Assembly: GCA_028703495.1 (NCBI GenBank)
Contig: JAQVMT010000001.1
Location: 215,117-279,116 of the forward strand
Reading direction: 5' to 3'
Source of the DNA: Clostridia bacterium
GTDB lineage: Bacteria > Bacillota > Clostridia > Christensenellales > CAG-314
Length of the DNA stretch: 64,000 bases
In this document: piece after piece, positions 11,342-55,063 of the stretch
How the letters are laid out: the number at the start of each line of letters is the position of its first letter
Numbering within the stretch: the first letter of the stretch is position 1
Translations under genes and position numbers: made by a program
Notes under the pieces: model-generated
What the model saw: only the letters and a program-made list of their open reading frames with translations
The model's database searches: none
Told to the model about the DNA's origin: nothing

Positions 11342-14300
11342 CTATCCGACGATTGTCGGAACTTGTTTATCCTCGGGTAAAACCGCGAATTGATCGGCTG
11401 TATTATCTACGTCGTTTGCTTGGGGGTTTACGACTTCGCCGTCCTCGTTGACCTCGCAACGAACGGTAAAGAAGCTACTCCAAATCATGTTGTAGTAATG
11501 TGCGCCAAGGTAGGGGTGATAGATCGTCAATTCTCTTGTCATATCTTCCATATAGCAATCGAAGTTTGCGTAGTAGTAAGAGTAATCCTTGTTGTATTGA
11601 CATTCCAACGTAGGAGCCTCAAACGACGTAAATACATAGGTCGAAAGAGCGGGAGTATTGAAGAATGCCTTATCGCCTATTGTTTTGAGGTTGGAAGGCA
11701 AAGTGACTTTTTCCAAATATACGTTATTTCTGAATGCGTTAGCCGCAATCTTTAAGACACTTTCGGGTACAACAAACTCAACATCGGTCTTTTCGCGTGA
11801 GTAGAATAGGAGAACCGACATATCGGAGTTGTATAAAACGCCGTCAACATACTTAAAGTAAACGTTTTTGGAGGAAACGTTAATGCTTTCGATGGCTTCG
11901 CAACCATAGAACACGTTAGAGAATCCGAAGTCACCTGTTTTCTTTGAAATGGTAATGTTTTTGATGGCGGAATTTGCGAACGCTTTAGAGCCAATGTACT
12001 TGATACTGTTAGTCAATACCAGGTTTTCAATTGCTGTTCTCATAAAGGCTTGATCCATGATTTCGGTAACACCGCCGAAGTCTACGCTCTTAAGGTTTAT
12101 TGCGCCTGTGAAAGCGTTAACGGATAAGGTATTAAGGCTATTTGAAAGCACAACGCCCTGTAGCAGCTCTTTGGAGGAAAGGTATCCGGTTGTGTTGTAC
12201 AAGATTGCGCCGTTTCCGTAAGTAACAAGAGCCGTAAGGAGTTTATTAGAGCAAGAGAAAGCATAGTCGTCCATTTCGATAACACTATCGGGCATAATGT
12301 AAATGCCGTCGAAGTCCCATCCGTCGGGCTGTCTGTAAACTCTTGTCATCTCTGCGTTATAAAGTACGTTGTATTCGTCGTTAACGAGATATTCGTTAGC
12401 CTCGCCTGCCGTAAACATAGAAAGCTTCGGGCAGTTATTAAACGCACCGCTTCCGATATATTCAACGTTTCCGTTAAAGGTAACCGAAGCAAGGTTGGGG
12501 TTGGTTTGGAAGGCTTTTCCGTCGATAGCTCCGATATTGCCGTTGAAGGTTACGGTTTCCAAGCATTCGGAAGCTACAAACGCATAGCCATCGATCAAGT
12601 CGATATCCGCATCGATTACAAGGTTCTTGATAAGATATAGATATGCCATATCCTTACCGTCGGAGCTTCCGATAGAAGCAACATGACCGTCGAGGTAGAA
12701 TTCCTCGAGAGCAGGCAAATTCCACAGCACATTTGATATATCGAGGTTATTAGAGTGAATTGTGATCTTTTTGAGCGAGCTGCAAGCAGAAAGCGAATTT
12801 CCATAAAGCAGGGTAACCGTATCGGGAATTTCGATTTGCTCTATACCCGAGAGATTGAACACGCTGCCCCAAATTTGCTTCAAGCCATAAGGCAGCTCAA
12901 TCGATTTCAAGCTTGTACAGGACAAGAACACGCTGTTTTTAAGAATTTGCAGGTCCTTGCTCAATACAACTTCATTAAGAGCACCGCAGTTGCTGAAAGC
13001 TTTATTGCCGATTGTTGTTACGCCGTCGTTCATAATAACCTTTTGGAGCGATGTACAATCGGAGAAAGCTTCGTCCGCAACTTCCTTAACCGTGCTCGAG
13101 AATACGATCGATCGCAACGAGGTATTACCCCTGAATGCGGTGGAAATGGTGGTAACGCCTTCGGGGATAACTAAGTCGATTTCCTCGCCGTAGTATGCCA
13201 AAAGCACGCCGTCGATGATTACATAGTTGCTGACTTCCGAGATGTAAGCAGCGTAGTTAGCCCAGTTGTCGAAAGCCACATACTCATCGCCGTAGGCTTC
13301 GGGAACATAGATCTTAAAGTTTTCGGCAACGTTTGCAAATACGTTTACGCCAATTGTCGGAGGAACTTTTCCTTCGAACGTTACGGATTCGAGAGCAGTG
13401 CAGTTTGCAAACGCACCATCGTCCAGCGAAGTCAAGTCGCTGTTGAACGTGATTGCTCTAAGAGCGGTGCAGCCTGCAAAAGCCGATGCGCTGATGTTTT
13501 GAACATCGCGGAGGTAAACCTGGAACAAAGCGGTACAGCCTTCGAATGAGGACGCTCCGATAGAGGTAAGGAAAGAATAGGTATTGATTTCCTGGATTGT
13601 CGTGTTGTCCTTAAAGGCATTATCTCCGATCGCCGTGATTCCCGCGGGGACCAGAACCCTTGTAGCTTCTCCCGTATATTCCGTCAAGACTCCTTCGTTT
13701 ACGGTGAAGTCCTTCATGGAGTATACAAGTTGCGAGTAGTCGGGCATAAAGTTGTCACCGAATCCCGCCCAAGCTGCTACGTAAGCATCGTATGCTTCTT
13801 CCTTAACGTAGACGACAAGGTTATTTCTGATATAGCAGAAGAAAGCGAATTGGGTTAACGTGGGAGGATTTGTTCCGCCCATAGTGATTTGTTCAAGGTC
13901 GTTGTAGGTAAACGCCTGTCCGCCGATAGTGGTAATGCTTGCAGGCAGATAGATGGATTCCAAACTCGTGAACATAAAACAGCTGAAGCCCAATGTGGTC
14001 ATCGTTTCCGAAAGTCTTACGTTTTCGATTGACGTACAGTTGTAGAAAGTATAGTCGGGAACGGATTTAAGCAAACCATCGACGAAAGTTACGTTTCTAA
14101 GCGATACACAATCGTAGAAGACATAAGTTCCCATAGAGGATACGCCCGAAGGTATGATAACCTCTGTTATCTTTGCACAATTACGGAAGGCTCCCGTACC
14201 TATTGTGGTTACGGATGCGGGGATAACGAAGTTGTTCAATTGCGAGCAGTTCATAAAGGCTTGCGCTCCGATAGTCACAAGTGACTCGGGGAATACTATT

Positions 14301-17300
14301 TTTTCTATATTGACGCAGCCTGCGAATGACGATTTGCCGATGGAAACAAGCTTGTCGTGGAATACGACACCCGTAACCGTCAGATTGTTTTCAAACACGT
14401 TATCGCCGATAGAAGTAACCTTGTCGGGGATTACGATTACGCCGCCTTCGCCTGCGTAAGCAATCAATTTACCGCCAACGATCTCGAATTCGGATTCTTT
14501 AAGTAAATTTTTGTATTCGTTCCAATTGGAATAAGCGACGTAAGTATCGATTGATCCGATAGGAACGTAAATTACAAGATTTTCCTTGCAAGTATCGAAT
14601 ACGCCCGTGCCGATTGCACAAGGATCGGAAGTATTAAACGATACATCGTAAAGATTTGCACAGCCCTTGAATGCACCGTCTTTGATTTCCTTTACACATT
14701 CGGGAATACTCAAAACCGTCAGCCCTTCGCAGCCCTCGAATGCGTTAAGTCCGATTGACTCGATACGTGTAAAATCGATATCGGTTACCGCGGTATTTGA
14801 AAATGCTCCTTCGCCTATAATTTCTACAGATGCAGGGAAGGTTATCAAAGTACTCGTGCCGGCATACCTTGTAAGCACGTTTCCTTCAATGGTGTATCCC
14901 TCCATAGTTTTTACAATAGATGCGTAGGACGAGAATACGGATTGAGCTAAGTAGAAAGTCTTGGCTTCCTCGTTAACAACCCAAATCGTCAAATTATTTA
15001 CCGATGCGAACAAGCCGCCTCCGATAATTGTCATATTCGAACTCATAAAGTCTATTGCCTTAAGGTTACTGCAAAGGTAGAATACCATCTGTCCCATTGA
15101 TTCGACCGACGCGGGAATAATGATTCTATCCAAAGATGAGCATACGCCGAAAGCCTGTCTGTCGATTGAAATCAAGGTATCGGGTAAAATGACTCTCGTA
15201 AGGTTAGTGCAGTTATGGAAGGCTTGAACACCGATTGAAGTAATTTTTGTGTTACTCATATCGATTGAAGTAAGAGCTGTATTATTGGCAAATACCAATT
15301 CTGCGATCGAAGTGATTGAATCGGGCAGAACAACGTCGCCGCCCAAACCTCTGTATTCCACCAATACGCCGTTTTTGACGACATACTCCAATTCAAACAA
15401 CAAGCTCTCATATGCTTTCCAGCTGTCGTTTGCTAAATATCTGTCTTTGGTATCAACGGGAATATTGACCACAAAGCCTTCGGCGGTGCCATCGAACACG
15501 TCAGCTCCGATTACAGGTGCTTCCTTTGTGACCAAGGTAATTTCGCCTAAAGCCGAGCAATTTTTGAAGGCATTGTCGCCTATCGATTGAAGGGTATCGG
15601 CAACGAATTTGACTTCCGACAGAGCGGTGCAGCCCTCGAAGGCCGATGCGCCGATGTTTACGGTGTCATACATAGTGACGGATGTTATGGCGGTATTGTC
15701 CTTGAAGGCGTTTTCGCCAATAGTCTTTATACCGGCGGGAATCTTCACCTTTGTATCGGTTCCCAGATATCCCGTAAGTGCGCCGTTTTCGATAGTGAAT
15801 ACATCCTCGAGCTTCGTTATTCTCGATTTATACGGCGTCAGCATACCATAGTTATAGAATGTGTCATAACCGGCGGCGGGAACATAAATAGGAACGGTCG
15901 TTGCAACGCCCGTGAACATACCTCCACCCAAAGTAGTGAAGTTTACATTCCAAAACACGATCATTTCAAGTGCCTTGCAATTATTCCAAGTTACGTGGCT
16001 GATGTTTTCCACACCGGCGGGGATTGAAGCATACTTTAGAGCACTACAGCCCGCCCAAACCTGCGTTCCGATAGTTTTAAGAGATTCGGGAAGTACGCAG
16101 TATTCCAATACGGTACAATTTCTAAACGCCGTATCGCCGATAGCCGTACAGCCTTCATTGATAACGACGGTCTTTAGAAAGGAACCTGCCGATGTAAAGG
16201 CGTTTTTGCCTATGGAAGTTACGCTCGAAGGAACGATAACGTCGGCAGCTTTTCCGGTATAAGTAACCAATACTCCGTCAACGATAGTAAAACCTTCGGT
16301 ATTTTCGGGATCCTCGGGATCCTCGGGCTCCTCGGCGGGGGCGCCAAAGTTAATGGAATAGAGGCTTGCGTTATAGGCGTAGTCCTGCAAATACAGCACA
16401 AGAACGTCGTCGATAAGCAAGGGCTTCAACTCGGTGAAATCTATGGAAATATTCCAGGATTCACCGGAACCTTCGGTAACGATAGGCAGAGGATAATCGT
16501 AAATAGAAGTGATTGTTCCGTCCTCTTTCATCGTATAAAGCTGCATATCCATTAAGTAGAAGTTGTCGTATGCCTGCACAATCAAGGAGGACTGATCGTC
16601 CAATTCAATAATTGTTGCTCCGTTGAGTGTGGGAGCTTCCATATCGATGTAGATCGGGAAGGAATAGCTTTGGGCACACTGTTCGCCGTTTAAGTAAGCG
16701 GTAAGAGTGACAGTAATTTCTTGGTTGTTAGCTAGTCCGAGAGTATATGGCATAATCTCGAGCAAGTCGTATGATGCAATAATTTCACCTGACGTAGTAT
16801 TGTAATAGGTTTTGGTTTTATTGCTCACGGTGGTAGTCCATATTTCGTCACCGCTCCAGGTATCGGTAATTGTGTAAGTCATGTAATCCACATTTCTGAG
16901 CAAGCCGAACTGAACGCAGTAGAGTTGTGTCATAGCTCCGCTAAGCTCGGACAGAGCGGATTTTTCCAAGCTTGCTTCAACCTTACTGAAGCCTTCGGGG
17001 AGAGTGTATGGGTATGCTCCCAAAGGAAGCAGGTATTGGGATTGATAAAGTCCCAAAGGAGTCAAGGGATACAGCTGGGCGGTTTGCTCGGAGTAATAAT
17101 CCTCGTCGAACACGGGAACATCTTCCCAATCGCCGTAAAACGCCAACCAAGGAATGGACAGGTCCACGCCTTCGACAGCCGTTAGCTTTACAAAACCTTC
17201 TACATACATTCCGTTTTCAAAGGTTGCATCGATGTATTTCTTTTCGGAATCGGCAAGAGTAACCACGATTTTAAGCGCGGCTGTTTGTCCCGCGGCAACC

Positions 17301-19585
17301 GTAACATAACCGTTTTCCAAAGCTCCGTTTACAACGGATACTGCGGTCGTTCCTTCTGTCAGCATATAAGCCAAGCCGTCAACCGTAACCCCATCGGTCG
17401 ATGAGTCGGTCATAACAACGGTGTTTATATAATACGTCAAGTCGATATCGCCGAAGTTGACGATATTGAAATTCAAGGTATAAACGCCGGATTTGGATTC
17501 GTCATCGCCCAATTCCATTTTCGGCCTTGCTTTATCCGTAACGGACAAGACTGCGGTGGTATTCAAGGCATCTTCCAAGCAGGCGACACCTGCGCCCTGT
17601 TTGCGAATAAGTGCGGGATTGCCGTTAACGTCGTACGCGCTCGATGCCGTGGACATCAAGAGAGCGTAAACCATATTCTGTATTTCCTTGTCGGACAGTC
17701 CCGACGTCTTTTCGCTTAAATACTGTCTTAAAGCCGTAGTAACGCCCGTAATATTGGGAGCTGCCATACTCGTACCGCTCATCGATGCGTATCCGCCGAT
17801 TACTGACGAATAGATAGATTCACCGAAGCTTACGATTTCGGGCTTTATGGACAAGTCGTTGATGGGTCCCCAAGAGGAGAAGTCGGACATTTCGTATACG
17901 CCGTTGTCCTTATCGATAACAATGGATCCATTGGAGTTTTCTGCCAAAACCGAGCCTTTATTCAAAGTGATTGAAGCCGAGGGTATAACCAGGTTTGCAA
18001 TCTGCATGGTTATTTTGCCCGAAGTATTATTGAATACGATACATCCGATCGCGCCGTGATCTGCGGCGTATTGCTGTTTCAATTCAAAGCTTATGCTACC
18101 GCGCTTTACGAGTACGATTTTGCCCGATACGTCCAGTCCCTCATAATCGGCTTCCTCGCCACCGTTGGGAACAAAGACATATTCCAATTCCACTTTAGAA
18201 TTGTTGCCGAGCAAGCTTCCGAAGAAGTTATAGTATTCGGAGTCGGCGTTAACCGCGTTATTGAAGAAGATTCTGTCGGATACTTCCACGTTTCCGTCGG
18301 CAGTTAGGTAATAGGTTGCGGTTGTATTTATGGATGCGACCGAAAAGGCTTGAGAATAGGAGGAGCTTGACGAAATAACTCCGTTGTCGGGGTTGGATGT
18401 CAGATTTCCGCCGTAGTTGCTTTGCAAGCCGCTGTTATAGGAATTGCCCGCAGATACACAGAGCGTGATTCCCACGCTGTCGACCAACTCGTATATTTCG
18501 TTGATGAAAAGATAGTCCTCGCCTCTTTCGTAGGAGAATCCGCACGGAGAGCCCAAGCTCATATTAATGGAATCGACACCCAACATAATCGCGTCGCCCA
18601 ATGCTTGAATCACTCTTGAGGTATAGCCTGTACCGGAGTTTGTGAATACCTTCATAATGGCAAGCTGCGCGTTGGGAACGACTCCCGTAACCTCATCGTC
18701 ATCGCCCGCAAGTATTCCTGCGACGTGTGTTCCGTGAGGATTAGCCGCGTAAACGTCTGCATCGTTGTCACCATAGTCGTACGAGAAAGGAATTTTGGAG
18801 CTTATGTAACGTCCATTGATGCCCAACTGCGCCATAGCGGCAGTTATTTGCTCGTAGGTGTAAGCAACTTCGGTAAGCTCTCCCGCAAACGCGGAATGAG
18901 TGTAATCGATACCTGTATCGAGAATGGCTACGATTTTGCCTTCACCTTGGTATTCGGTAAGGTTTTCAAAGATTCCCGATCCGTTGTCGATGGTTGTAAA
19001 GTCGTAGACTGTGTCAGGAGCGGCGTATTCTTCGGATATAACCACTCTTTCCACGCCGTTAATGTTTTCCAAAGCCTCGATGTCGCCGTAGTTGACCACA
19101 GCGGAGAAGCCGTTAAGCAGATCCGTATATTCGAAGCCGTATTCAATGTTGATTTTTGCAGAGGATATACGTGCCTTTACGCGTGCCTGCTCGATTAAAA
19201 AAGCATTTTCCAAAGCAACGGCTTCGTCACTTACTTTGTATTCGGTAATATCGGTATAAACCGATTGACTCTGATAATGAGAAAGCAGAGATTGACCGTT
19301 GATAACGACGATAACCTCTACCGAATCGGTCTCGGCAAGCGATCCGGATTCGATAAGCAAGTCGGAGTTTAAATAGCTTGTCAGTATTTTCTCCATATCG
19401 CTACTGTCATATTCTTTCGTAATATCATTCAACGTCAGTTGAGTTATCTTACTGTCGGTAGATATTTGCGTTTCCGATTTGTTCACGATTGTGTTGTCGG
19501 GAGTTTGTCTGACCGAACAACCGCAAATAACCAACACGGCACTGAGCATCAGTATCAATAGCAGCATTAGATTTTTGTTTTTCAT
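11342..19585 (-). CDS. Giant lipoprotein: S8 subtilisin-family protease with PA domain fused to BspA-like LRR_5 repeats
   Basis: Lipobox VICGC; AILDTGIDYTHSAF (D), PHGTHVAGILAG (H), MSGTSMAAPN (S); PA-like YEGLDVSGKIVLVKRG; long array of IG..AF..C..L..I LRR units. Confidence 0.92.
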   Translation of the reverse strand: MKNKNLMLLLILMLSAVLVICGCSVRQTPDNTIVNKSETQISTDSKITQLTLNDITKEYDSSDMEKILTSYLNSDLLIESGSLAETDSVEVIVVINGQSLLSHYQSQSVYTDITEYKVSDEAVALENAFLIEQARVKARISSAKINIEYGFEYTDLLNGFSAVVNYGDIEALENINGVERVVISEEYAAPDTVYDFTTIDNGSGIFENLTEYQGEGKIVAILDTGIDYTHSAFAGELTEVAYTYEQITAAMAQLGINGRYISSKIPFSYDYGDNDADVYAANPHGTHVAGILAGDDDEVTGVVPNAQLAIMKVFTNSGTGYTSRVIQALGDAIMLGVDSINMSLGSPCGFSYERGEDYLFINEIYELVDSVGITLCVSAGNSYNSGLQSNYGGNLTSNPDNGVISSSSSYSQAFSVASINTTATYYLTADGNVEVSDRIFFNNAVNADSEYYNFFGSLLGNNSKVELEYVFVPNGGEEADYEGLDVSGKIVLVKRGSISFELKQQYAADHGAIGCIVFNNTSGKITMQIANLVIPSASITLNKGSVLAENSNGSIVIDKDNGVYEMSDFSSWGPINDLSIKPEIVSFGESIYSSVIGGYASMSGTSMAAPNITGVTTALRQYLSEKTSGLSDKEIQNMVYALLMSTASSAYDVNGNPALIRKQGAGVACLEDALNTTAVLSVTDKARPKMELGDDESKSGVYTLNFNIVNFGDIDLTYYINTVVMTDSSTDGVTVDGLAYMLTEGTTAVSVVNGALENGYVTVAAGQTAALKIVVTLADSEKKYIDATFENGMYVEGFVKLTAVEGVDLSIPWLAFYGDWEDVPVFDEDYYSEQTAQLYPLTPLGLYQSQYLLPLGAYPYTLPEGFSKVEASLEKSALSELSGAMTQLYCVQFGLLRNVDYMTYTITDTWSGDEIWTTTVSNKTKTYYNTTSGEIIASYDLLEIMPYTLGLANNQEITVTLTAYLNGEQCAQSYSFPIYIDMEAPTLNGATIIELDDQSSLIVQAYDNFYLMDMQLYTMKEDGTITSIYDYPLPIVTEGSGESWNISIDFTELKPLLIDDVLVLYLQDYAYNASLYSINFGAPAEEPEDPEDPENTEGFTIVDGVLVTYTGKAADVIVPSSVTSIGKNAFTSAGSFLKTVVINEGCTAIGDTAFRNCTVLEYCVLPESLKTIGTQVWAGCSALKYASIPAGVENISHVTWNNCKALEMIVFWNVNFTTLGGGMFTGVATTVPIYVPAAGYDTFYNYGMLTPYKSRITKLEDVFTIENGALTGYLGTDTKVKIPAGIKTIGENAFKDNTAITSVTMYDTVNIGASAFEGCTALSEVKFVADTLQSIGDNAFKNCSALGEITLVTKEAPVIGADVFDGTAEGFVVNIPVDTKDRYLANDSWKAYESLLFELEYVVKNGVLVEYRGLGGDVVLPDSITSIAELVFANNTALTSIDMSNTKITSIGVQAFHNCTNLTRVILPDTLISIDRQAFGVCSSLDRIIIPASVESMGQMVFYLCSNLKAIDFMSSNMTIIGGGLFASVNNLTIWVVNEEAKTFYLAQSVFSSYASIVKTMEGYTIEGNVLTRYAGTSTLITFPASVEIIGEGAFSNTAVTDIDFTRIESIGLNAFEGCEGLTVLSIPECVKEIKDGAFKGCANLYDVSFNTSDPCAIGTGVFDTCKENLVIYVPIGSIDTYVAYSNWNEYKNLLKESEFEIVGGKLIAYAGEGGVIVIPDKVTSIGDNVFENNLTVTGVVFHDKLVSIGKSSFAGCVNIEKIVFPESLVTIGAQAFMNCSQLNNFVIPASVTTIGTGAFRNCAKITEVIIPSGVSSMGTYVFYDCVSLRNVTFVDGLLKSVPDYTFYNCTSIENVRLSETMTTLGFSCFMFTSLESIYLPASITTIGGQAFTYNDLEQITMGGTNPPTLTQFAFFCYIRNNLVVYVKEEAYDAYVAAWAGFGDNFMPDYSQLVYSMKDFTVNEGVLTEYTGEATRVLVPAGITAIGDNAFKDNTTIQEINTYSFLTSIGASSFEGCTALFQVYLRDVQNISASAFAGCTALRAITFNSDLTSLDDGAFANCTALESVTFEGKVPPTIGVNVFANVAENFKIYVPEAYGDEYVAFDNWANYAAYISEVSNYVIIDGVLLAYYGEEIDLVIPEGVTTISTAFRGNTSLRSIVFSSTVKEVADEAFSDCTSLQKVIMNDGVTTIGNKAFSNCGALNEVVLSKDLQILKNSVFLSCTSLKSIELPYGLKQIWGSVFNLSGIEQIEIPDTVTLLYGNSLSACSSLKKITIHSNNLDISNVLWNLPALEEFYLDGHVASIGSSDGKDMAYLYLIKNLVIDADIDLIDGYAFVASECLETVTFNGNIGAIDGKAFQTNPNLASVTFNGNVEYIGSGAFNNCPKLSMFTAGEANEYLVNDEYNVLYNAEMTRVYRQPDGWDFDGIYIMPDSVIEMDDYAFSCSNKLLTALVTYGNGAILYNTTGYLSSKELLQGVVLSNSLNTLSVNAFTGAINLKSVDFGGVTEIMDQAFMRTAIENLVLTNSIKYIGSKAFANSAIKNITISKKTGDFGFSNVFYGCEAIESINVSSKNVYFKYVDGVLYNSDMSVLLFYSREKTDVEFVVPESVLKIAANAFRNNVYLEKVTLPSNLKTIGDKAFFNTPALSTYVFTSFEAPTLECQYNKDYSYYYANFDCYMEDMTRELTIYHPYLGAHYYNMIWSSFFTVRCEVNEDGEVVNPQANDVDNTADQFAVLPEDKQVPTIVG

Positions 19586-40345: not shown

Positions 40346-40589
40346 AATTAATCTTCCTCTTTAGCAGTTCTGTTCATACTGCCCGAAAAGGGATACGGAG
40401 TTTCGCCGTATATTTTAGCATCTGTCAAAACATATCTTTGTTTTGGCAAAACGTCTTTGCACGGAGCAAAGACAAAAGCCTTATCGGCATCAGTTCCCAG
40501 CCGATATTCATACTCTCATTTTCTGAGCTTCCCATATTCCCAAAACGATTCCGAATACAATGCGTTTTTCTTTATTCGGTTGGCTCGCC

Positions 40590-42755
40590 TTATTTCTTTC
40601 CGTAGACGTAATCGTAAACCGAAATCAAATTCGAATAGGACGAGTCGTTGATAACGTCATCGGCATCTGCGCGCTTGTTCCTGCCAAGCAAACCGCCGAT
40701 AAAGTTCTTAACCTTTTCGATACCACGCGCTTTCGGAGGTGCGAACGGTACAAGTCCGCCGTCGCCGTAGCTCTCGTCGATGTCTTCCTTTTCCAACGTG
40801 AAGCTCTCTATCTCTTCACTGCCGTTTACCCCCGATCGGCTGTCGAGTCCGTTATCATCATCATCGAATAAGTCGTAAGTGCGGTTATTCTTTGAAGTTG
40901 CTCGATCGCCTTGTTGTGCACCCTTTGCTTCTCGGTCATTTGTACGATTACTTTCCGCGGCTCTTTCGCTCTTCGGTTCATTGAAAAGGTCCTTGTAATC
41001 CTTGTCAACGGATGCGTTATTCTTATTGTTCGATGTGCTTGATACGTTATTTGTTTTACCCGAGGCACTTTTTGTGTTTGGCTCCACACTGTCAGCAGCA
41101 GGCGAGGTTCTTGCAGTTTGCGCAGCACTTGCCGCACCGTCCAAAGCGTTATTTTGCATCGGCATATCGACTTGGCTTGTATTCGAAGTCGCAGACTCGG
41201 TAGCTTTCGCTGCTCGCAAGTTCTCGGAGGTATAGGCTTTGCCTTGACCGACATCGGGCGTATCGTCTCGGTCGGACGATTTTGCATTACTACTGCTAGA
41301 AGCTTGCGCGTAAACGTTTCCGTTTCGGTTATCCGACTCGCGTTCGGATTGAGCTTTATCGCCGTTGATTCTGCCAACTTGTTCGTCGCCGCCTAAAATA
41401 ATTACCGTTTCGCCGTCCTCGTTTCGGGTAAAGCTTTTATTTCCGACACTCGAAGCCGACTGCACAATCCTTTCGGCAAGCAGTCGAGCCTTCTCCTCAT
41501 CGGATAGATCCTCGGGTAAATCGTTTACGGGAACGGCAACGTAGACAGTACCGTCCTCCTTCCAAATCTCTCCGTTTGCGTTACGGTTGTTATTAGCGAA
41601 GGGATTTGAGGCGTTACCGTAGTTAGATTCATAGCCGTTTTGACCGTTTGGGTATTGACCGCCAAAGTTTCCGTTAATCGGCTGTTGATTATATCCGTTG
41701 TTGTACGTTTGTCCGAATCCGTTGTAATCGGGCTGTCCGTAACTGTTATTTTGCCCGTTTTGCGGATTCTGTGCATAGCCGAAATCCGAAGCGGGTCTGT
41801 TAAATGGATTCCCATTTGCTCCGTTGCCGTTTTGTCCGTAGGGCAAATACTGTTGAGGATAGCCGTTCTGACCGTAGGAATATCCACCCTGATTGTTACC
41901 GCTCGGATTATTAAAGCGATTCAAATAACCGTCAGGACGGCTGTAGTCGGGTATACTGCCGTTGCGATAATCGCCGAAGGTCCCGTTGTACGGCGATCCG
42001 AATTGCGAATATGGCTGTGAATTGCCGTAGCCGTAATCGTTTTGCCCATAACCGTAAGGATTTTGCTTGATGACAGGTTCGACCGAGATCACGGGATTAA
42101 TGGTTATCGGTATCTCGATTGCATTAGGCCTTTGCCCGTAACCATTCGAAAACATGTTTTGACCGCCGAAGGGATTCGCCTGAAAACCTCCGTTAGGCGC
42201 ACTGTTTTGATTCTGATAACCGTTAGGTGCACCGTTTTGATTCTGAAAGCCGTTTGGATTATTTTGCGCGTTATAAGGGTTGTTTTGATAACCGCCCTCA
42301 ACGCTACCGCCATCGCCATTATTGCCGCTTTTTTTCGTGAAGCTCTTAATGTGGGGATTAATGTCAATCTTTTCCCCTTCTATATGATAATTCTCGCTTA
42401 TATTTTTTTCCTTGACTGTTTCCTGCTCCTCATCGAAATCCTCGGTAGCGTTAACCTTGTCCATAAAGCTTTCACCGCCTGTGGACATCGCGCGATTCTC
42501 CCTTTTGACCGCTTCCCCTTTCGAATTTGTGGCAAGGTCGATATCCTCGACAAAAAACATGTCCCAACCCTCAAATTGCTCGGACTTTAAAATGTCTTTT
42601 ATGTCGATTTTATGCTTTGCACCCTCGTTGAGATAATTCAAGCTTTGGTTGACGTCTACATCTCCGAACATAAAACTCGGAAGCGCAAACTTACCGCCTA
42701 CCTCCACAATCGGTTCAACCTTTTTTTCCTCTTTTGCAAACACCGATTTAAGCAT
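40590..42755 (-). CDS. 721-aa N/G/Q/Y-rich low-complexity (prion-like) protein
   Basis: Long uninterrupted ORF; central region of GYQNQN/YGQNGY/NPF motifs; no signal peptide or TM; acidic/polar C-terminal part. Confidence 0.8.
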   Translation of the reverse strand: MLKSVFAKEEKKVEPIVEVGGKFALPSFMFGDVDVNQSLNYLNEGAKHKIDIKDILKSEQFEGWDMFFVEDIDLATNSKGEAVKRENRAMSTGGESFMDKVNATEDFDEEQETVKEKNISENYHIEGEKIDINPHIKSFTKKSGNNGDGGSVEGGYQNNPYNAQNNPNGFQNQNGAPNGYQNQNSAPNGGFQANPFGGQNMFSNGYGQRPNAIEIPITINPVISVEPVIKQNPYGYGQNDYGYGNSQPYSQFGSPYNGTFGDYRNGSIPDYSRPDGYLNRFNNPSGNNQGGYSYGQNGYPQQYLPYGQNGNGANGNPFNRPASDFGYAQNPQNGQNNSYGQPDYNGFGQTYNNGYNQQPINGNFGGQYPNGQNGYESNYGNASNPFANNNRNANGEIWKEDGTVYVAVPVNDLPEDLSDEEKARLLAERIVQSASSVGNKSFTRNEDGETVIILGGDEQVGRINGDKAQSERESDNRNGNVYAQASSSSNAKSSDRDDTPDVGQGKAYTSENLRAAKATESATSNTSQVDMPMQNNALDGAASAAQTARTSPAADSVEPNTKSASGKTNNVSSTSNNKNNASVDKDYKDLFNEPKSERAAESNRTNDREAKGAQQGDRATSKNNRTYDLFDDDDNGLDSRSGVNGSEEIESFTLEKEDIDESYGDGGLVPFAPPKARGIEKVKNFIGGLLGRNKRADADDVINDSSYSNLISVYDYVYGKK

Positions 42756-43106
42756 CCCCCTTTATTCCATCGATCAACCGCTCCGTTCGAGCGTAAAATA
42801 TCGACCTTCGCCGATTCACACTCCCGTCCGTTACGCATTCGCGGAAGACCGTGCACATAGTTATATTTTGCGCATCGCACAATGCAGCGCCGTCCCGATT
42901 CCCTACAATACGCGCATTGTACAATAATATATTCACATAGTATGGTAACATAACCGACCGCTTTTTGCAAGCATAATAAAGAATTTTTTATAAAAATAAC
43001 CCGAAAACGGAGCAATTACCGCCTTTTGGGTAAAATTGCTTATAACTGAAGCCAAAAAACAAAGAGCAGAAATTCGGCAAAATCTCCGAAAAAATAGTAC
43101 AAACCA

Positions 43107-43135
43107 AAACGGAGTGTAAAAATCACACTCCGTTT
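43107..43135. terminator. Intrinsic-terminator-like hairpin downstream of the ferredoxin gene
   Basis: AAACGGAGTGT...ACACTCCGTTT. Confidence 0.75.
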
Positions 43136-43266: not shown

Positions 43267-43434
43267 CTAACCCTCGATAGCGTTAACGGGGCAAGAAGCA
43301 GCGCAAGCGCCACAATCCACACAAACATCGGGGTCGATAACATAGGTTTCGTCGCCCTCACTGATCGCGCTAAAAGGGCAAACACCCGCGCAAGTTCCGC
43401 ATTTAATGCAAGTCGATGTAATCTTATGAGCCAT
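43267..43434 (-). CDS. 2[4Fe-4S] ferredoxin
   Basis: MAHKITSTCIKCGTCAGVCPFSAISEGDETYVIDPDVCVDCGACAASCPVNAIEG (two CxxCxxCxxxCP); below the ORF-track cutoff. Confidence 0.96.
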   Translation of the reverse strand: MAHKITSTCIKCGTCAGVCPFSAISEGDETYVIDPDVCVDCGACAASCPVNAIEG

Positions 43435-47901: not shown

Positions 47902-48559
47902 ATCGGCTCGGTTAAAACTCTTTTTTTATCTTTCTTGGTTAAAATATCCGCAAATATTCAGATACAGGAATTATTGCGCGCTTTTAGAGTGTGAATTTTG
48001 ATAATACCTAGTAATAAGATAAAGCGAAAAAACAAGTACAAGTTTTTCTAATGAGCCATTGACTTTGAGATGAAAGTGTGCTACAATGCCGTAAATGCAA
48101 AAAATTTTAATTATTGCAATATCTTAGTGCTAGGAGAACACAAAGACATCACGTGCAAAAGCAGCTACTTTGAATCAATTCCCGATAACGATGAGGTTGA
48201 GATAGCGGTCGTGCAGGCAAAAGCAGCTACTTGGAATAAAATACACATTCGGTATGCTGTAAAAGTTGTCTTACGAGAAACAGCACGATACAAACATAAC
48301 AAAAGCCGACTGCGTTCCCACGCAATAGTTGATGTGTTTACGGTGATAAAAACGAAGTTTTGCGGATTCACTCTATGAACCGCTTGATACGCATATAGAA
48401 TACGGATTTTCGAGAGAAGCTTTCTTGCCGAAGCATTATAAAGCAGAGCTATGTGATTTAAGGTGAAGGGAGGGATGCTCAAGCTGCGTGTTCGACTCGG
48501 TGTATTTATCGGTGATTGGTCTTTATTCGCTTGACAATGATTTCTTAGGAGGTAACACA

Positions 48560-51500
48560 ATGAAAGGCAAAACAAAAGTAGTGGTCTTGATGCTTATCGC
48601 GGCAATTGTATTCAGTTGCACGGCGTTTGGCGCGGGCTTTGCCGAAGATGCAAGCGGTTCGACGATATTGAACATACGCAAGGCGGATGTGGCTGTCGAC
48701 GGGCTTAAGCTTGCAGGAGAGGCGGTAAACGTAACACAGAGCGAGTTGTTCGGTGACGACGATCTACTGTGGGTTATGGTCAGACTGGACGAGGGTTTGG
48801 TCGGACTGTATCTGGATGGAAACGTGAGAGGCACATTTGCAGACTATGCGAAAAGCAAGGAAGGGCAAATGATTACCGAACAAATGCTTGACGAGCAGGC
48901 GGCGGTGCTGGATTTGATGAACGGCAAGGGAATCGATTACACGATATCTCACAGATACACGACACTTTTAAATGGTATGGCGGTGCAAATCAAGCATTCG
49001 CAAATCGATACATTAAAAGCGATTGCAGGTGTGAAAAATGTGTACATATCGGAGTTTTACGATGTACCCGAGACGACTTACGGAACTAACGGTTCGATAT
49101 CGAGCGCATTTGACCTTAACGGAATGATGAGCAACGAAACAGGCTATAACGGTGAAGGCACGGTTATAGCAATTTTAGATACAGGCTTGGATTATGAACA
49201 CTCGGCTTTCAACAGTGCGATATCCAATCCTACCATCAATTTTGAAAATTTGAGTGCGCTTACGCAATCTTTGTATTGCACCCAATTGGTGGGAGCCGAT
49301 AACATTGCCGAGTATGCTTATATAAATGAAAAAGTACCGTTCGGTTTTGACTATGCCGATATGGATAACGATGTTATTCCCGATATAGGTGCAGTGTGGG
49401 ATTACGGCGGATACCACGGAACGCACGTTGCGGGTATTGCCGCAGGCGACGACGATCAAATTACCGCTGCAGCAAGTCAGGCGCAGCTAGCAATATTCAA
49501 GGTATTTAGTGACTATTCGGGTGGAGCATATATGACAGATATCGTTGCCGCATTAGGTGACGTTTTGGTATTGGGTTGCGATGTTGCCAATTTAAGTTTG
49601 GGTTCGGCTGCAGGCTTTACAGCCGAGGATCCCAATGCTGCCGCATTCATCAACGAGATATACGATCTGATTGCGCAAACAGGCTTGATAATGTGCTGCT
49701 CGACGGGTAACGACAATCCCCAAGACCAGTCGCTTCTGAATCTAACGAGTAATCCGGACAACGGAATTGTGGGAAGTCCCGCTTCCTACAACGGAACACT
49801 GGGAATAGGTTCTATCGACAATGCGGTGCTGATGCTTGCCGACTTTAACGGTACTGACATCTATTTGGTTAACGCCGTGGATTCGGACAGCAAAAAGTAT
49901 GATTTTTATTCGTTGCTGGGCGAAAAAACGACGGCTGCTTTTGACTTTGTGGCTTTAGATGCTTTCGGATACGAAGCAGACTATGAGGGATTGGACGTTA
50001 CGGGTAAAATCGTATTGATTCCTCGTGGAGAGATATCCTTCCAAGAAAAGCAAGAGATTGCCGCTCAAATGGGCGCGATTGCCTGCTTAGTTATCAATAC
50101 GGACGAAAACGAGATAGTAAATATGGTTATAGGGGATCTCAAGATACCTACCGCGTGCGTTGTGCTAAATGAGAATTCGTTAGCAATGTTTGAGGCTGCA
50201 ACGGGTTCGATGACCTTTGACAAGAGCGCGATGATGCTCAATATTTCGTCTTATTCATCGGCGGGTGTTTTGTCCGATTTGACGATCGGCGTCGATGTTG
50301 TCGGCGTCGGCGGAAGCGTAAGATCTTCCATTAACGCATGGTTCGATATGATTAACGATACGGAAGGCTACGTTGTTATGAGCGGAACGAGTATGTCTTC
50401 GCCCAACGTTGCGTCTACCTTTGCGGTATTGAAGGGCTATTTGAAGCAGATGTATCCCGAAAAGTCAAACATAGAGTTGAGGGAGCTTTGCTATCAGGTA
50501 ATGATGAGTACGGCTTATGCCATGACGGATGCGGACGGCAATTATGTATCGCCGCGTTATCAGGGCGCAGGTTTGGTCGATGTAAACAATGCTGTTGCCG
50601 CAGAGGCTTATTTGACGGTTACAGGAAGCGACAGAGTTAAGCTCTCGCTCGGCGATGACGAGGAGAAGACAGGTATTTATACCCTTAGCTTCAATTTGGT
50701 AAACGTAAGCGAGAACGCAAAAACCTTTGACATTAAGGCGACTGCCGCAACGGCTTTGGCTGCAAACGATAGAATTACCGCTGGCACATATGCGTTTGAG
50801 GGATTCGACGTGACCTACAGTGCCAAAAACGGAGTTATCGAAGGTAACTCCATTACGGTTGAAGGCGGACAAACGGCAAAAGTAAAGGTTGTTATCGTTT
50901 TATCCGAAAATAACAAGGCATATCTGGAAGAAAACTATGTAAACGGCGGTTACGTCGAGGGCTACGTGGTTTTGGCGGAAGCAGACGGAATCGATTTAAG
51001 TATTCCTTATGTCGCTTTTTACGGCGATTGGGAACAAGCTCCTATCTTCGAGCCTACTTACTTTGAGTATTTGGAAGGTGCACCAGTTCAGGGTACGGTT
51101 GTCGATATTCTCGCGGCTATGGTTCTGGGCAGCGCCGGAAATATCACGATTATAACCACATACGGCTTGGGCAGATATTACTATGCGACCGACTTCGGTG
51201 TGGAATCTCCCAAAGGCTCCGAGGACTATATCTCCTTGGGATATACCGGATCGGTTTACTGCTTGTCGTTCGGAACCTTGCGTAATCTCGACAATATGGA
51301 GATCAAGATTTTCGACAAGTACACGGGCGGCGAGGTAATATGTGATTATCTCGTTAATATCAAAAAGAATTTTTACAGTGATGGCTGGACAATAACAGAG
51401 ATTGAAGTTTCGTTTTCGGGTTTATCTCCCAAGACTATGGGCTTTATGAACAATCAATCGCTGATTTTGAAAATCAACGGCAGCTTTAACGGCGTATGGA

Positions 51501-54500
51501 GTGAAGATAGTATCGAATTCCCGATTTTCATCGATATGGAAGCGGCTACACTCAACAGTGCGGAGCTGAGAACAGAGGAAGAAAACACATTGCTTGACAT
51601 CGATGTTTACGACAATCACTATTTGCAGTGCGTCGGTTTCTACACAAGTAACGGTGAGGGCGGATTGTCGGCATTAAGCGATTACGCAGCTCCCGTTTAC
51701 GAATTTACACCGTTTACAAACAATAAGCTTACATTGAATATCACAAAGTATATGGATGATATCGTTGACAACACGTTTGCAATCGGACTTATCGACTATG
51801 CAAACAATAAATCCATATATTATATCGAGCTTCCGAATGAGGGGGAAGAAGTTAATGCAGTTACAATAACCGAGGATTACGAAATAAGCGAGGATGCAAT
51901 TGTTCATTCTTTTTCGAACGAGGAAGAAATGAAGTCGATCTTTGCCAATGCAAAAGTGCAATCCAAGCTTTTGAAGGAAAAGTACTCGGTTAACGCCGAA
52001 GGCGAGGATGAAGTTGAAGAATTCGTGGTCGAGAACGGCGTGCTTGTCGCTTATAACGGCGAAGGCGGCGACGTTGTAATTCCCGGAGATTTGGGTATTA
52101 CGACAATCGGCCAATACTGTTTCTTCGATACAGGTCATATCACGTCGATGGTTATTCCCGAAGGTGTAACAGTAATCGACAGCTATGCGTTTTTCGCAGC
52201 GTATTCCATCAAGACGATATCTCTTCCCACCACCTTGGAAAAGGTGAATGATTTGGGAATGTATTGTATGAGTCAGCTTACCGAGTTGGATTATTCTAAC
52301 ACGAAAGTAAACTACTTCGGAAGAATGGCGTTAGGCGGAAACAACTACATTAAGAATTTGATTATACCTGACAACGGCACGGTAATCAATGTTGACGGTT
52401 GGCAATTGATGACCGCCTTGGAAACGTTGGAATTCAAGTGTGAAGTCGGAATTATGAGAAGGGCGTTAAGCGGATTCGTAAGCCTGAAGACATTGGACTT
52501 CGATAAGAATGTTAACAGAATAACCGGAGTGACGTTATTGGGCGCGAATAAGCTTACGACCATTACTTTCCATGGAAACCTCAACAGTTTTGGCGACGAA
52601 GATGGTTGGGAGTCCACTTGCCCCGCCCTGACTTCTATTACAACTGTTAATTTTATGGGCGATGTTGGAAGTATTGCGGGCGTATCGTTTAGCAAATGTC
52701 CTCAGCTTCGTGAAGTTAACTTCTATGGCAACTTAGGAAGTTTGGGTACGAAAGCTTTCGGACACAGCGATAAGTTGACATCCTTTAACGTAATGCCGGG
52801 AAACGAGTATTTGGTTAAGGACGATTATGGAATCGTATACGACAAGGCTATGACGACAACCTTCGTTCCTTCAAGCTGGGACTATGACGGAGAAGTTATC
52901 ATACCGGATACGGTTACTAATTTAAGGCTGGGCGAATCGGGTATGGCAATCGACAGCATAAGTATAAGCTACCAATGCGACGATTTCGGTAATGCCTTTA
53001 CGGGTTCCTTTGCCTTTAGCTCTTACACGACCTCGGATAAGCCTTTGCTTAAGAAGCTGACGTTGCCCGAGGGCATAACCGAGCTTCCTTACAACGCATT
53101 GAGAAACTTTGTAAATTTAGGTGAAGCTAATCTCGGAAATATTACGAGTTTCGGACAGGAAAGCTTATACAGAACGGGCTTCACATCGTTGATATTCGGC
53201 GATAAAGTCGAATATATCGGTGCTCAGGCTTGGTTCGGCTGTGCAAAGCTTACCGAATTGGTATTCGATGTAACAAAATATGATGTGGCAGAGCTGGGAT
53301 ATTACGGATTATACGGCGGCTTGGAGTCGATGACGGAAATTGTTGTTCCCGAGGAAATCGGTGCGTCCGAAAGGGGATTGTTTGTGGAATCTACGGGCTT
53401 GCAAAAGATCACATTCCTTAATACATCGGCTACTAGCTTGGGATCCTCCATATTCAACGGTTGTAGCTCGCTAACCGAGGTTATCGGCATCGAAGGCATT
53501 GCTACGGTTGGTTCCGCGGCATTCTACAGATGCTCATCGCTTAAATCCATCGATCTGCCAAACTTGGTACAAATTGCAGATGTCGGATTTGCCTCTTGTT
53601 CTTCCTTGGAATATGTAAATTACGGCGATAAGCTGGCTTCCGTCGGTTATAATGCGTTTTACCGATGCGTTTCGTTGAAGGAGATCTACGTTACGCAGTA
53701 TATGTCAAGCGTTGACTTCGACAATGTATACATTGACTGTAACGCACTGGAAAACATAAGAGTTAACGAAAACAACCCCTATTTTGCTTCCATTGATGGC
53801 GCACTTTACAACAAAGCAGTTACTAGGTTGATAAAGTATCCTTCGTTGAAGACCGATGATAGCTATGAAATTCCCGAGACCGTCAAGTCTGTGGGTTCGT
53901 ACGTATTCGCGGGCGCAATATACCTTAAGGAAGTAACCATGCTGGGAGTAATCGGTGTCAACTCGTACGCCTTTGACGGTTCTGCATTGGAGATTGCATA
54001 TGTAAGAGATTTGAAAGAAATCGATTATTTCGCCTTCTACAACTGCAACCTGAAGCAAATCGATTTGAGCAACGTTACCTATATCGGCGGTTGTGCGTTC
54101 AAGGGCTGCGACCTGTCCGAGGTAGTGATTAACGAAGTAGCTTGGATCGGAGTCGGCGTATTCGACGGCAACGTGAATCTCGAAAAGGTAACACTAAACA
54201 ACACCTTCCGCTTTGACTTCAGTATGACGTTTGGCGGTTGCACTGGCATTAAGGAAGTCGTTCTTGGCGACAACTGCACGGCGTTCGTTATCGAAGGCGA
54301 TATGCTTATGAGTGCCGATAAGGACGTTCTCTATAAGTATTTCGGTACTGCCGAGGAATTGACAATACCCGAGGGTATCGTAAAGGTCGGCGCAATTTCG
54401 TTCGTAAACAACACTACGCTTACAAAGGTAACCTTCCCGACGACATTGAAGGTTATCGGCGACAAGGCGTTCTTCGGTGCGACCAAGCTTACGGCTTATG

Positions 54501-55063
54501 AGTTCTTGGGAACGAATGCCCCGATACTTGAATGTGATTATGTGGAAGGACAAAGCTATATGTACGCAAACTTCTGCGATTATATTTTCAATGATATAAG
54601 CTTGACCGTTTATCACCCTGTATCGAACAGCTATGAAACGGTTATTTGGAATTTGTACTTTGACACTCATTATGAAATGACCGAAGAGGGCTATGTTCAG
54701 ATTGAGAATATTGCCGTTCTTCAGGTTAGAGCGCTTATCGATACTCTTTCCAAATTGAGTGGAGAAACCTACGAAAAGGCTGTTGCAAAGGCGAGAGCGG
54801 CTTACAACACGTTAAGCGTTAAGGAGCAGGCCGAAGTATCCAATTACAACCTGTTGCTTGTAGCAGAGCAAACAATAAGCAACACCGAAGACAAGGACGA
54901 GGAAACCTCGATGTCGCAAAATAACGGCGAATCCGATTCCGCTTTAAGCTGCGCAACTGTCGGCGGTAACGGAGGAAGCTTCGGAACGGGAGCTGCTATG
55001 CTGTTGCTGTGCTTGGGCTTTGCGGCTGTATTGCTTAAAAAGCGCGTAGGCGCGAACAAATAA
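48560..55063 (+). CDS. Secreted/anchored S8 subtilisin-family protease with PA domain and BspA-like LRRs
   Basis: Signal peptide MKGKTKVVVLMLIAAIVFSCTAFGAGFA; AILDTGLDYEHSAF, YHGTHVAGIAAG, MSGTSMSSPN; LRR_5 array; C-terminal TM AAMLLLCLGFAAVLLKKR. Confidence 0.93.
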   Translation: MKGKTKVVVLMLIAAIVFSCTAFGAGFAEDASGSTILNIRKADVAVDGLKLAGEAVNVTQSELFGDDDLLWVMVRLDEGLVGLYLDGNVRGTFADYAKSKEGQMITEQMLDEQAAVLDLMNGKGIDYTISHRYTTLLNGMAVQIKHSQIDTLKAIAGVKNVYISEFYDVPETTYGTNGSISSAFDLNGMMSNETGYNGEGTVIAILDTGLDYEHSAFNSAISNPTINFENLSALTQSLYCTQLVGADNIAEYAYINEKVPFGFDYADMDNDVIPDIGAVWDYGGYHGTHVAGIAAGDDDQITAAASQAQLAIFKVFSDYSGGAYMTDIVAALGDVLVLGCDVANLSLGSAAGFTAEDPNAAAFINEIYDLIAQTGLIMCCSTGNDNPQDQSLLNLTSNPDNGIVGSPASYNGTLGIGSIDNAVLMLADFNGTDIYLVNAVDSDSKKYDFYSLLGEKTTAAFDFVALDAFGYEADYEGLDVTGKIVLIPRGEISFQEKQEIAAQMGAIACLVINTDENEIVNMVIGDLKIPTACVVLNENSLAMFEAATGSMTFDKSAMMLNISSYSSAGVLSDLTIGVDVVGVGGSVRSSINAWFDMINDTEGYVVMSGTSMSSPNVASTFAVLKGYLKQMYPEKSNIELRELCYQVMMSTAYAMTDADGNYVSPRYQGAGLVDVNNAVAAEAYLTVTGSDRVKLSLGDDEEKTGIYTLSFNLVNVSENAKTFDIKATAATALAANDRITAGTYAFEGFDVTYSAKNGVIEGNSITVEGGQTAKVKVVIVLSENNKAYLEENYVNGGYVEGYVVLAEADGIDLSIPYVAFYGDWEQAPIFEPTYFEYLEGAPVQGTVVDILAAMVLGSAGNITIITTYGLGRYYYATDFGVESPKGSEDYISLGYTGSVYCLSFGTLRNLDNMEIKIFDKYTGGEVICDYLVNIKKNFYSDGWTITEIEVSFSGLSPKTMGFMNNQSLILKINGSFNGVWSEDSIEFPIFIDMEAATLNSAELRTEEENTLLDIDVYDNHYLQCVGFYTSNGEGGLSALSDYAAPVYEFTPFTNNKLTLNITKYMDDIVDNTFAIGLIDYANNKSIYYIELPNEGEEVNAVTITEDYEISEDAIVHSFSNEEEMKSIFANAKVQSKLLKEKYSVNAEGEDEVEEFVVENGVLVAYNGEGGDVVIPGDLGITTIGQYCFFDTGHITSMVIPEGVTVIDSYAFFAAYSIKTISLPTTLEKVNDLGMYCMSQLTELDYSNTKVNYFGRMALGGNNYIKNLIIPDNGTVINVDGWQLMTALETLEFKCEVGIMRRALSGFVSLKTLDFDKNVNRITGVTLLGANKLTTITFHGNLNSFGDEDGWESTCPALTSITTVNFMGDVGSIAGVSFSKCPQLREVNFYGNLGSLGTKAFGHSDKLTSFNVMPGNEYLVKDDYGIVYDKAMTTTFVPSSWDYDGEVIIPDTVTNLRLGESGMAIDSISISYQCDDFGNAFTGSFAFSSYTTSDKPLLKKLTLPEGITELPYNALRNFVNLGEANLGNITSFGQESLYRTGFTSLIFGDKVEYIGAQAWFGCAKLTELVFDVTKYDVAELGYYGLYGGLESMTEIVVPEEIGASERGLFVESTGLQKITFLNTSATSLGSSIFNGCSSLTEVIGIEGIATVGSAAFYRCSSLKSIDLPNLVQIADVGFASCSSLEYVNYGDKLASVGYNAFYRCVSLKEIYVTQYMSSVDFDNVYIDCNALENIRVNENNPYFASIDGALYNKAVTRLIKYPSLKTDDSYEIPETVKSVGSYVFAGAIYLKEVTMLGVIGVNSYAFDGSALEIAYVRDLKEIDYFAFYNCNLKQIDLSNVTYIGGCAFKGCDLSEVVINEVAWIGVGVFDGNVNLEKVTLNNTFRFDFSMTFGGCTGIKEVVLGDNCTAFVIEGDMLMSADKDVLYKYFGTAEELTIPEGIVKVGAISFVNNTTLTKVTFPTTLKVIGDKAFFGATKLTAYEFLGTNAPILECDYVEGQSYMYANFCDYIFNDISLTVYHPVSNSYETVIWNLYFDTHYEMTEEGYVQIENIAVLQVRALIDTLSKLSGETYEKAVAKARAAYNTLSVKEQAEVSNYNLLLVAEQTISNTEDKDEETSMSQNNGESDSALSCATVGGNGGSFGTGAAMLLLCLGFAAVLLKKRVGANK

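Follow-up and report, generated by a model that had tools for sequence, protein, structure and literature searches.

An orphan, prion-like N/G/Q/Y-rich protein from a Clostridia bacterium: sequence anatomy and a putative role as cytoplasmic scaffold

Prion-like domains and self-assembling proteins in bacteria

Known bacterial prion-like domains are mostly appended to proteins of known function, e.g., Rho or SSB, and the eukaryotic low-complexity domains of the FUS type combine G, Y, Q and N with few charges and scattered tyrosine residues. The mother-cell proteins of the spore coat lack a signal peptide and evolve rapidly, and the bacterial scaffolds PopZ and McdB are of a composition which differs from that of the 721-aa protein described here. 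One survey counted 27,472 N/Q-rich disordered proteins in 6,469 proteomes, with regions enriched for N and Q at once accounting for about 1% of its N/Q set (PMC6400439). The protein described here, encoded within a 64,000-nucleotide stretch of Clostridia bacterium DNA (the window), is another member of this large compositional class, yet an unusual one, as it stands alone, is FUS-like and had no relative that could be found. With other bacterial N/Q-rich domains, among them the prion-like one of Clostridium botulinum Rho, it shares N/Q-rich disorder, a cytoplasmic location and a sporadic distribution (PMC4703818, PMC6400439); it differs from C. botulinum Rho in possessing neither a Rho domain nor any other catalytic domain, and in having no homologue at all. 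Being G/Y/P-rich besides N/Q, its composition is nearer to FUS than to the Rho-type domains. The likeness to FUS-type domains is one of composition alone (G/Y/Q/N, few charges, scattered tyrosine), as no RNA-binding domain, RGG repeats or sequence homology were found. PopZ and McdB have in common with it a disordered cytoplasmic nature and a possible scaffold role (PMC9512792, PMC10554743); no sequence relation to them was found, and pole or cargo evidence is absent for the prion-like protein.

Gene and anatomy of the prion-like protein

The gene (P0001) occupies positions 40590-42755 of the minus strand, reading from an ATG to a TAA stop codon, with an in-frame TAA located three codons upstream of the ATG; the 721-aa ORF given in the initial annotation was recovered exactly. 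Codon usage backs the annotated frame, whose synonymous codon score (0.052) was the best of all six (others at or below -0.007), whereby this value belongs to the low tail of the genome (long-ORF median 0.097) and the low-complexity part alone gives no separation between frames. The stretch AAAGGGGG lies immediately 5' of the ATG, a spacing unusually short for a ribosome-binding site, so that translation may instead begin at the GTG of codon 5.

The prion-like low-complexity region extends over residues 143-395 (41571-42329, minus strand) and consists to about 70% of N, Q, G, Y and P. In residues 151-395 these five account for about 71% (N 22%, G 17%, Q 11%, Y 11%, P 10%) and charged residues for 7%; the net charge of the region is near zero. 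Its best 100-residue window reaches an N/Q/G/Y/P fraction of 0.81, as compared to 0.41 for the next-best among 216 non-overlapping ORFs of the 279-kb contig and to 0.52 for the best among 374 ORFs from 20 family loci. The PLAAC check recommended along with the initial annotation was carried out as a re-implementation with approximate foreground frequencies, hence its values are approximate as well; it was strongly positive, with a 60-residue core score of +38 and a maximal segment of 143-395, while 26 other proteins of the window scored at most +0.5. The N/G/Q/Y-rich, prion-like composition claimed earlier is thereby confirmed, and the protein shows the positive score over at least 60 residues that characterizes bacterial prion-like proteins by composition.

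Within residues 143-395 the motifs NP[FY], YGQ, QNG and NG[YF] recur, and enrichment over expectation was found for NP[FY] (5 versus 0.8), YGQ (5 versus 0.5) and NG[YF] (7 versus 1.5). This recurrence of tri- and tetrapeptides results in part from a local duplication, namely a 30-bp tandem repeat of 2.2 copies at 42190-42254 encoding GYQNQN[GS]APNG-like units. The 38 aromatic residues are spaced 6.2 residues apart on average, with an evenness not significantly above random (P 0.11). Embedded in the region is an I/V-rich, beta-like island (NAIEIPITINPVISVEPVIK, residues 211-230; 42066-42125, minus strand), as nine of the 14 I/L/V residues of positions 150-395 fall at 213-229, a clustering which none of 5000 shuffles reproduced (P<0.0002), and show an alternating pattern.

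The duplication bears on one alternative, according to which a young or fast-decaying orphan gene is present whose low-complexity region has grown by slippage and serves no assembly function, the product being a passive linker or neutral protein. The below-average codon fit likewise agrees with this explanation; against it, 721 codons have stayed open, homopolymer codon runs are absent, codon choice for N, Q and Y is as varied as in other genes, unlike after recent slippage, and the non-repetitive regions, the island and the C-terminal helix described below have been retained. This alternative is considered rather unlikely.

Outside of the low-complexity region, residues 1-115 (42411-42755, minus strand) form a non-repetitive, acidic region with 37% hydrophobic residues, whose composition resembles that of an ordinary protein. 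No family match above cut-off was obtained for it in Pfam, NCBIfam and PHROGs. A Saccharop_dh_N match at residues 13-83 (E 0.009-0.15) stayed under the cut-off, and an internal repeat in the N-terminal half (36-58 versus 118-138) was rejected as a weak echo (shuffle P 0.07). The description of this N-terminus as ordered-looking could not be substantiated, since AlphaFold2 run without alignment assigned it a pLDDT of about 40. For the whole protein the mean pLDDT was 37, with better values only at 397-453, 675-689 and 705-717; such a prediction is weak evidence of disorder and supports disorder outside of these short elements. Following the low-complexity region, composition is ordinary again at residues 396-470, and a putative small folded domain of beta-beta-alpha-beta-beta topology is weakly predicted at residues 397-453 (41397-41567, minus strand; block pLDDT up to about 66). 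A Phd-like antitoxin PHROG matching this mini-domain at E 0.005 over 25 residues was discarded. Residues 471-640 (40836-41345, minus strand) were assigned to a polar and charged, S/N/D/K-rich linker predicted to be disordered (pLDDT <45).

The C-terminal part (residues 641-721) is acidic and holds one hydrophobic helix, the cationic amphipathic KARGIEKVKNFIGGLLGR at residues 675-692 (40680-40733, minus strand; AlphaFold2 helix at 675-689). It possesses the highest hydrophobic moment of the protein, a moment equalled in 71% of the contig's proteins, and its HELIQUEST-type D value of 1.79 (residues 679-696; P 0.05-0.12 in tail shuffles) lies within the lipid-binding range. Considered as a possible targeting helix of the MinD/FtsA/SepF type, the segment 679-696 combines this D value with a shuffle P of 0.05 and with moments commonplace on the contig. 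The helix could bind membranes, which is taken only as a lead, as tail shuffles equal its D in 5% of cases. The protein ends with a Y/S/D-rich tail (residues 698-721; 40593-40664, minus strand) for which a helix at 705-717 was weakly predicted. As regards anatomy, the initial annotation overlooked the island, the mini-domain and the helix.

Neither a signal peptide nor a TM segment, an LPXTG-like anchor or other surface repeats were found in the 721-aa protein, the maximum KD19 of 1.11 arguing against a TM segment. The cytoplasmic location proposed before is supported by these findings. The same findings speak against a secreted or surface-exposed structural protein or adhesin, an explanation that would otherwise draw on bacterial prion predictions including many outer-membrane and receptor proteins (PMC6400439) and that is regarded as highly improbable.

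Search for relatives and genomic neighbourhood

Homologues were found neither in 41 same-family genomes nor in a search of 80 relatives. Queries with the N-terminus (297 order genomes), the C-terminus and the mid-domain (396 order genomes each) and the full protein (391 class genomes) returned no homologue, the same being true for the GTDB-220 contigs, IMG/VR, phages and plasmids, and no match above cut-off was obtained in PDB, Pfam, NCBIfam and PHROGs. Further copies of the gene were not found in the own genome, stretch-wise sampling of which covered contig 22. Weak matches in order genomes (E 0.0006-0.1) are at chance level for the number of genomes searched; where the ORFs behind the N-terminal, C-terminal and mid-domain matches could be read, the matches fall in proteins of no relation, such as a type I restriction methylase, an ABC ATPase, one resembling transaldolase and ankyrin repeats, or in non-coding frames. 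Judged by sequence comparison, the protein is an orphan within the searched collections, in which its genus is represented by this one genome; a family at genus level may exist.

Among 20 family genomes that were read, no positional orthologue beside infC and no comparable N/Q-rich ORF in the infC neighbourhood was identified; most of them carry upstream of infC an ORF of ~650 aa, fitting thrS by size and place. As the neighbouring alpha/beta hydrolase is likewise without clear orthologues in the family, the segment with the prion-like gene appears to be rearranged and lineage-specific, adjoining conserved genes. Both this rearranged context and the lack of homologues at any rank favour the above explanation of a young or fast-decaying orphan gene. 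Between the prion-like gene and the hydrolase, an open, coding-looking frame without start codon (40357-40530, minus strand; EYEYRLGTDADKAFVFAPCKDVLPKQRYVLTDAKIYGETPYPFSGSMNRTAKEED) was noticed, which had no plasmid match and is perhaps a gene remnant.

Upstream on the same strand lies an ORF of 55 aa (43267-43434) whose product is ferredoxin-like and contains two cysteine clusters of the 4Fe-4S type; it falls under the cut-off of the ORF list, and a sigma-70-like promoter was located for it at 43557-43529. By eye, a terminator-like hairpin near 43130 separates this ORF from the prion-like gene, which for this reason is probably transcribed from its own promoter. About 150 bp 5' of the start codon, the perfect inverted repeat TACAAT-N6-ATTGTA (42904-42921) occurs as a single copy in the window and in the 279-kb contig, and is a possible candidate operator of some regulator. 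No operon partner was identified, nor was a tRNA or Rfam element found near the gene. Elsewhere in the window, two huge secreted subtilisin-like proteases of 2747 and 2191 aa (11342-19585 and 48488-55063) were recognised by reading, both of which appear to be fused to BspA-type leucine-rich repeats.

Scaffold and spore-coat readings

Considering the data described so far, a lineage-specific, self-associating cytoplasmic scaffold, possibly tethered to the membrane, is suggested as the single most likely reading of the protein, a suggestion made with somewhat less than even confidence. The nearly uncharged N/G/Q/Y/P region of ~250 residues would engage in many weak, tyrosine-centred contacts, by which the protein would self-associate as a condensate or gel, with the I/V-rich island 211-230 as a possible core for local beta-pairing. 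The N-terminal region and the mini-domain 397-453 would bind partners, and the amphipathic helix 675-692 would anchor the assembly to the inner surface of a membrane. This reading draws on composition, its uniqueness on the contig and in the family loci, the PLAAC-style score, motif enrichment, aromatic residues, near-zero net charge, island, helix, AlphaFold2 disorder and the absence of export signals. Against it stand the lack of homologues, and with it of any conservation that would show selection on any part, as well as the low codon fit, the marginal helix, the weakness of the AlphaFold2 evidence and the lack of an operon partner. From the cytoplasmic condensate or scaffold proposed in the initial annotation, composition, location and disorder are retained, whereas the term condensate or scaffold itself is plausible on composition alone; condensation or amyloid formation, like membrane binding and the existence of partners, is inferred from the sequence features named.

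A serious rival, which agrees with the data almost equally well, arises from the fact that the genome encodes SpoIVA (SpoIVA_ATPase, 351 bits), the conserved coat base protein, which is present in 36 of 41 family genomes; judged by gene content alone, the organism forms endospores. The protein would then belong to the spore coat or spore surface, remaining in the mother-cell cytoplasm without need of a signal peptide and encasing the forespore, whereby its N/G/Q/Y region would self-assemble or become cross-linked and the amphipathic helix would touch the forespore membrane. In B. subtilis the coat morphogenetic proteins are mostly lineage-restricted, with only SpoVM and SpoIVA being widely conserved (PMC5607322), a restriction into which an orphan would fit; tyrosine richness, low complexity and the missing signal peptide agree with a coat role, too. 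With coat proteins of the SafA and CotB/CotG type, the protein shares the missing signal peptide, low complexity, lineage restriction and a spore-forming host; it differs from them in that it could not be matched to them in sequence and lacks a promoter of the spoIVA type. The latter comparison is based on the spoIVA upstream regions of 13 relatives, from which the motif GTTCTA-N16-CATAYAATnTA was derived; it is shared by the spoIVA promoters of the family (L055-L074) and as such is usable as lineage-specific sporulation promoter motif. The organism's own spoIVA promoter carries it in relaxed form (GTTCTAT with AATATAAT, score 16.9), whereas within 300 bp upstream of the prion-like gene it is absent (score -1.3, rank 140 of 214 genes), which argues against spoIVA-like control, a result that concerns sigmaE and not late mother-cell control. 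Furthermore, no coat family of Pfam or NCBIfam matched the protein, recognised sporulation genes are not adjacent to it, and SpoVM (PF08183) has no match in the own genome, the helix 675-692 included, so that a SpoVM context for the helix is lacking. The coat role is rated as possible, if somewhat unlikely.

The preferred scaffold reading has a more far-reaching version, which is held to be quite improbable: within one genus of spore-formers, a FUS-like condensate scaffold, tethered to the membrane and carrying its own beta core, would have arisen de novo or lost all recognisable similarity to its relatives. If true, bacteria would have arrived by convergence at an equivalent of the prion-like scaffolds of eukaryotes. 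More generally, an N/G/Q/Y/P protein that stands alone, is chemically FUS-like and is possibly anchored to a membrane would offer a clean example in bacteria of assembly driven by tyrosine, and would also test whether spore-coat or vegetative scaffolds reuse such chemistry.

As a separate observation, FtsZ of one family relative (L016:17072-18307, minus strand) was found to possess a Q/G/F/Y-rich, prion-like C-terminal linker, 57% of which is made up of N/Q/G/Y/P, as compared to 23-37% in FtsZ of its relatives.
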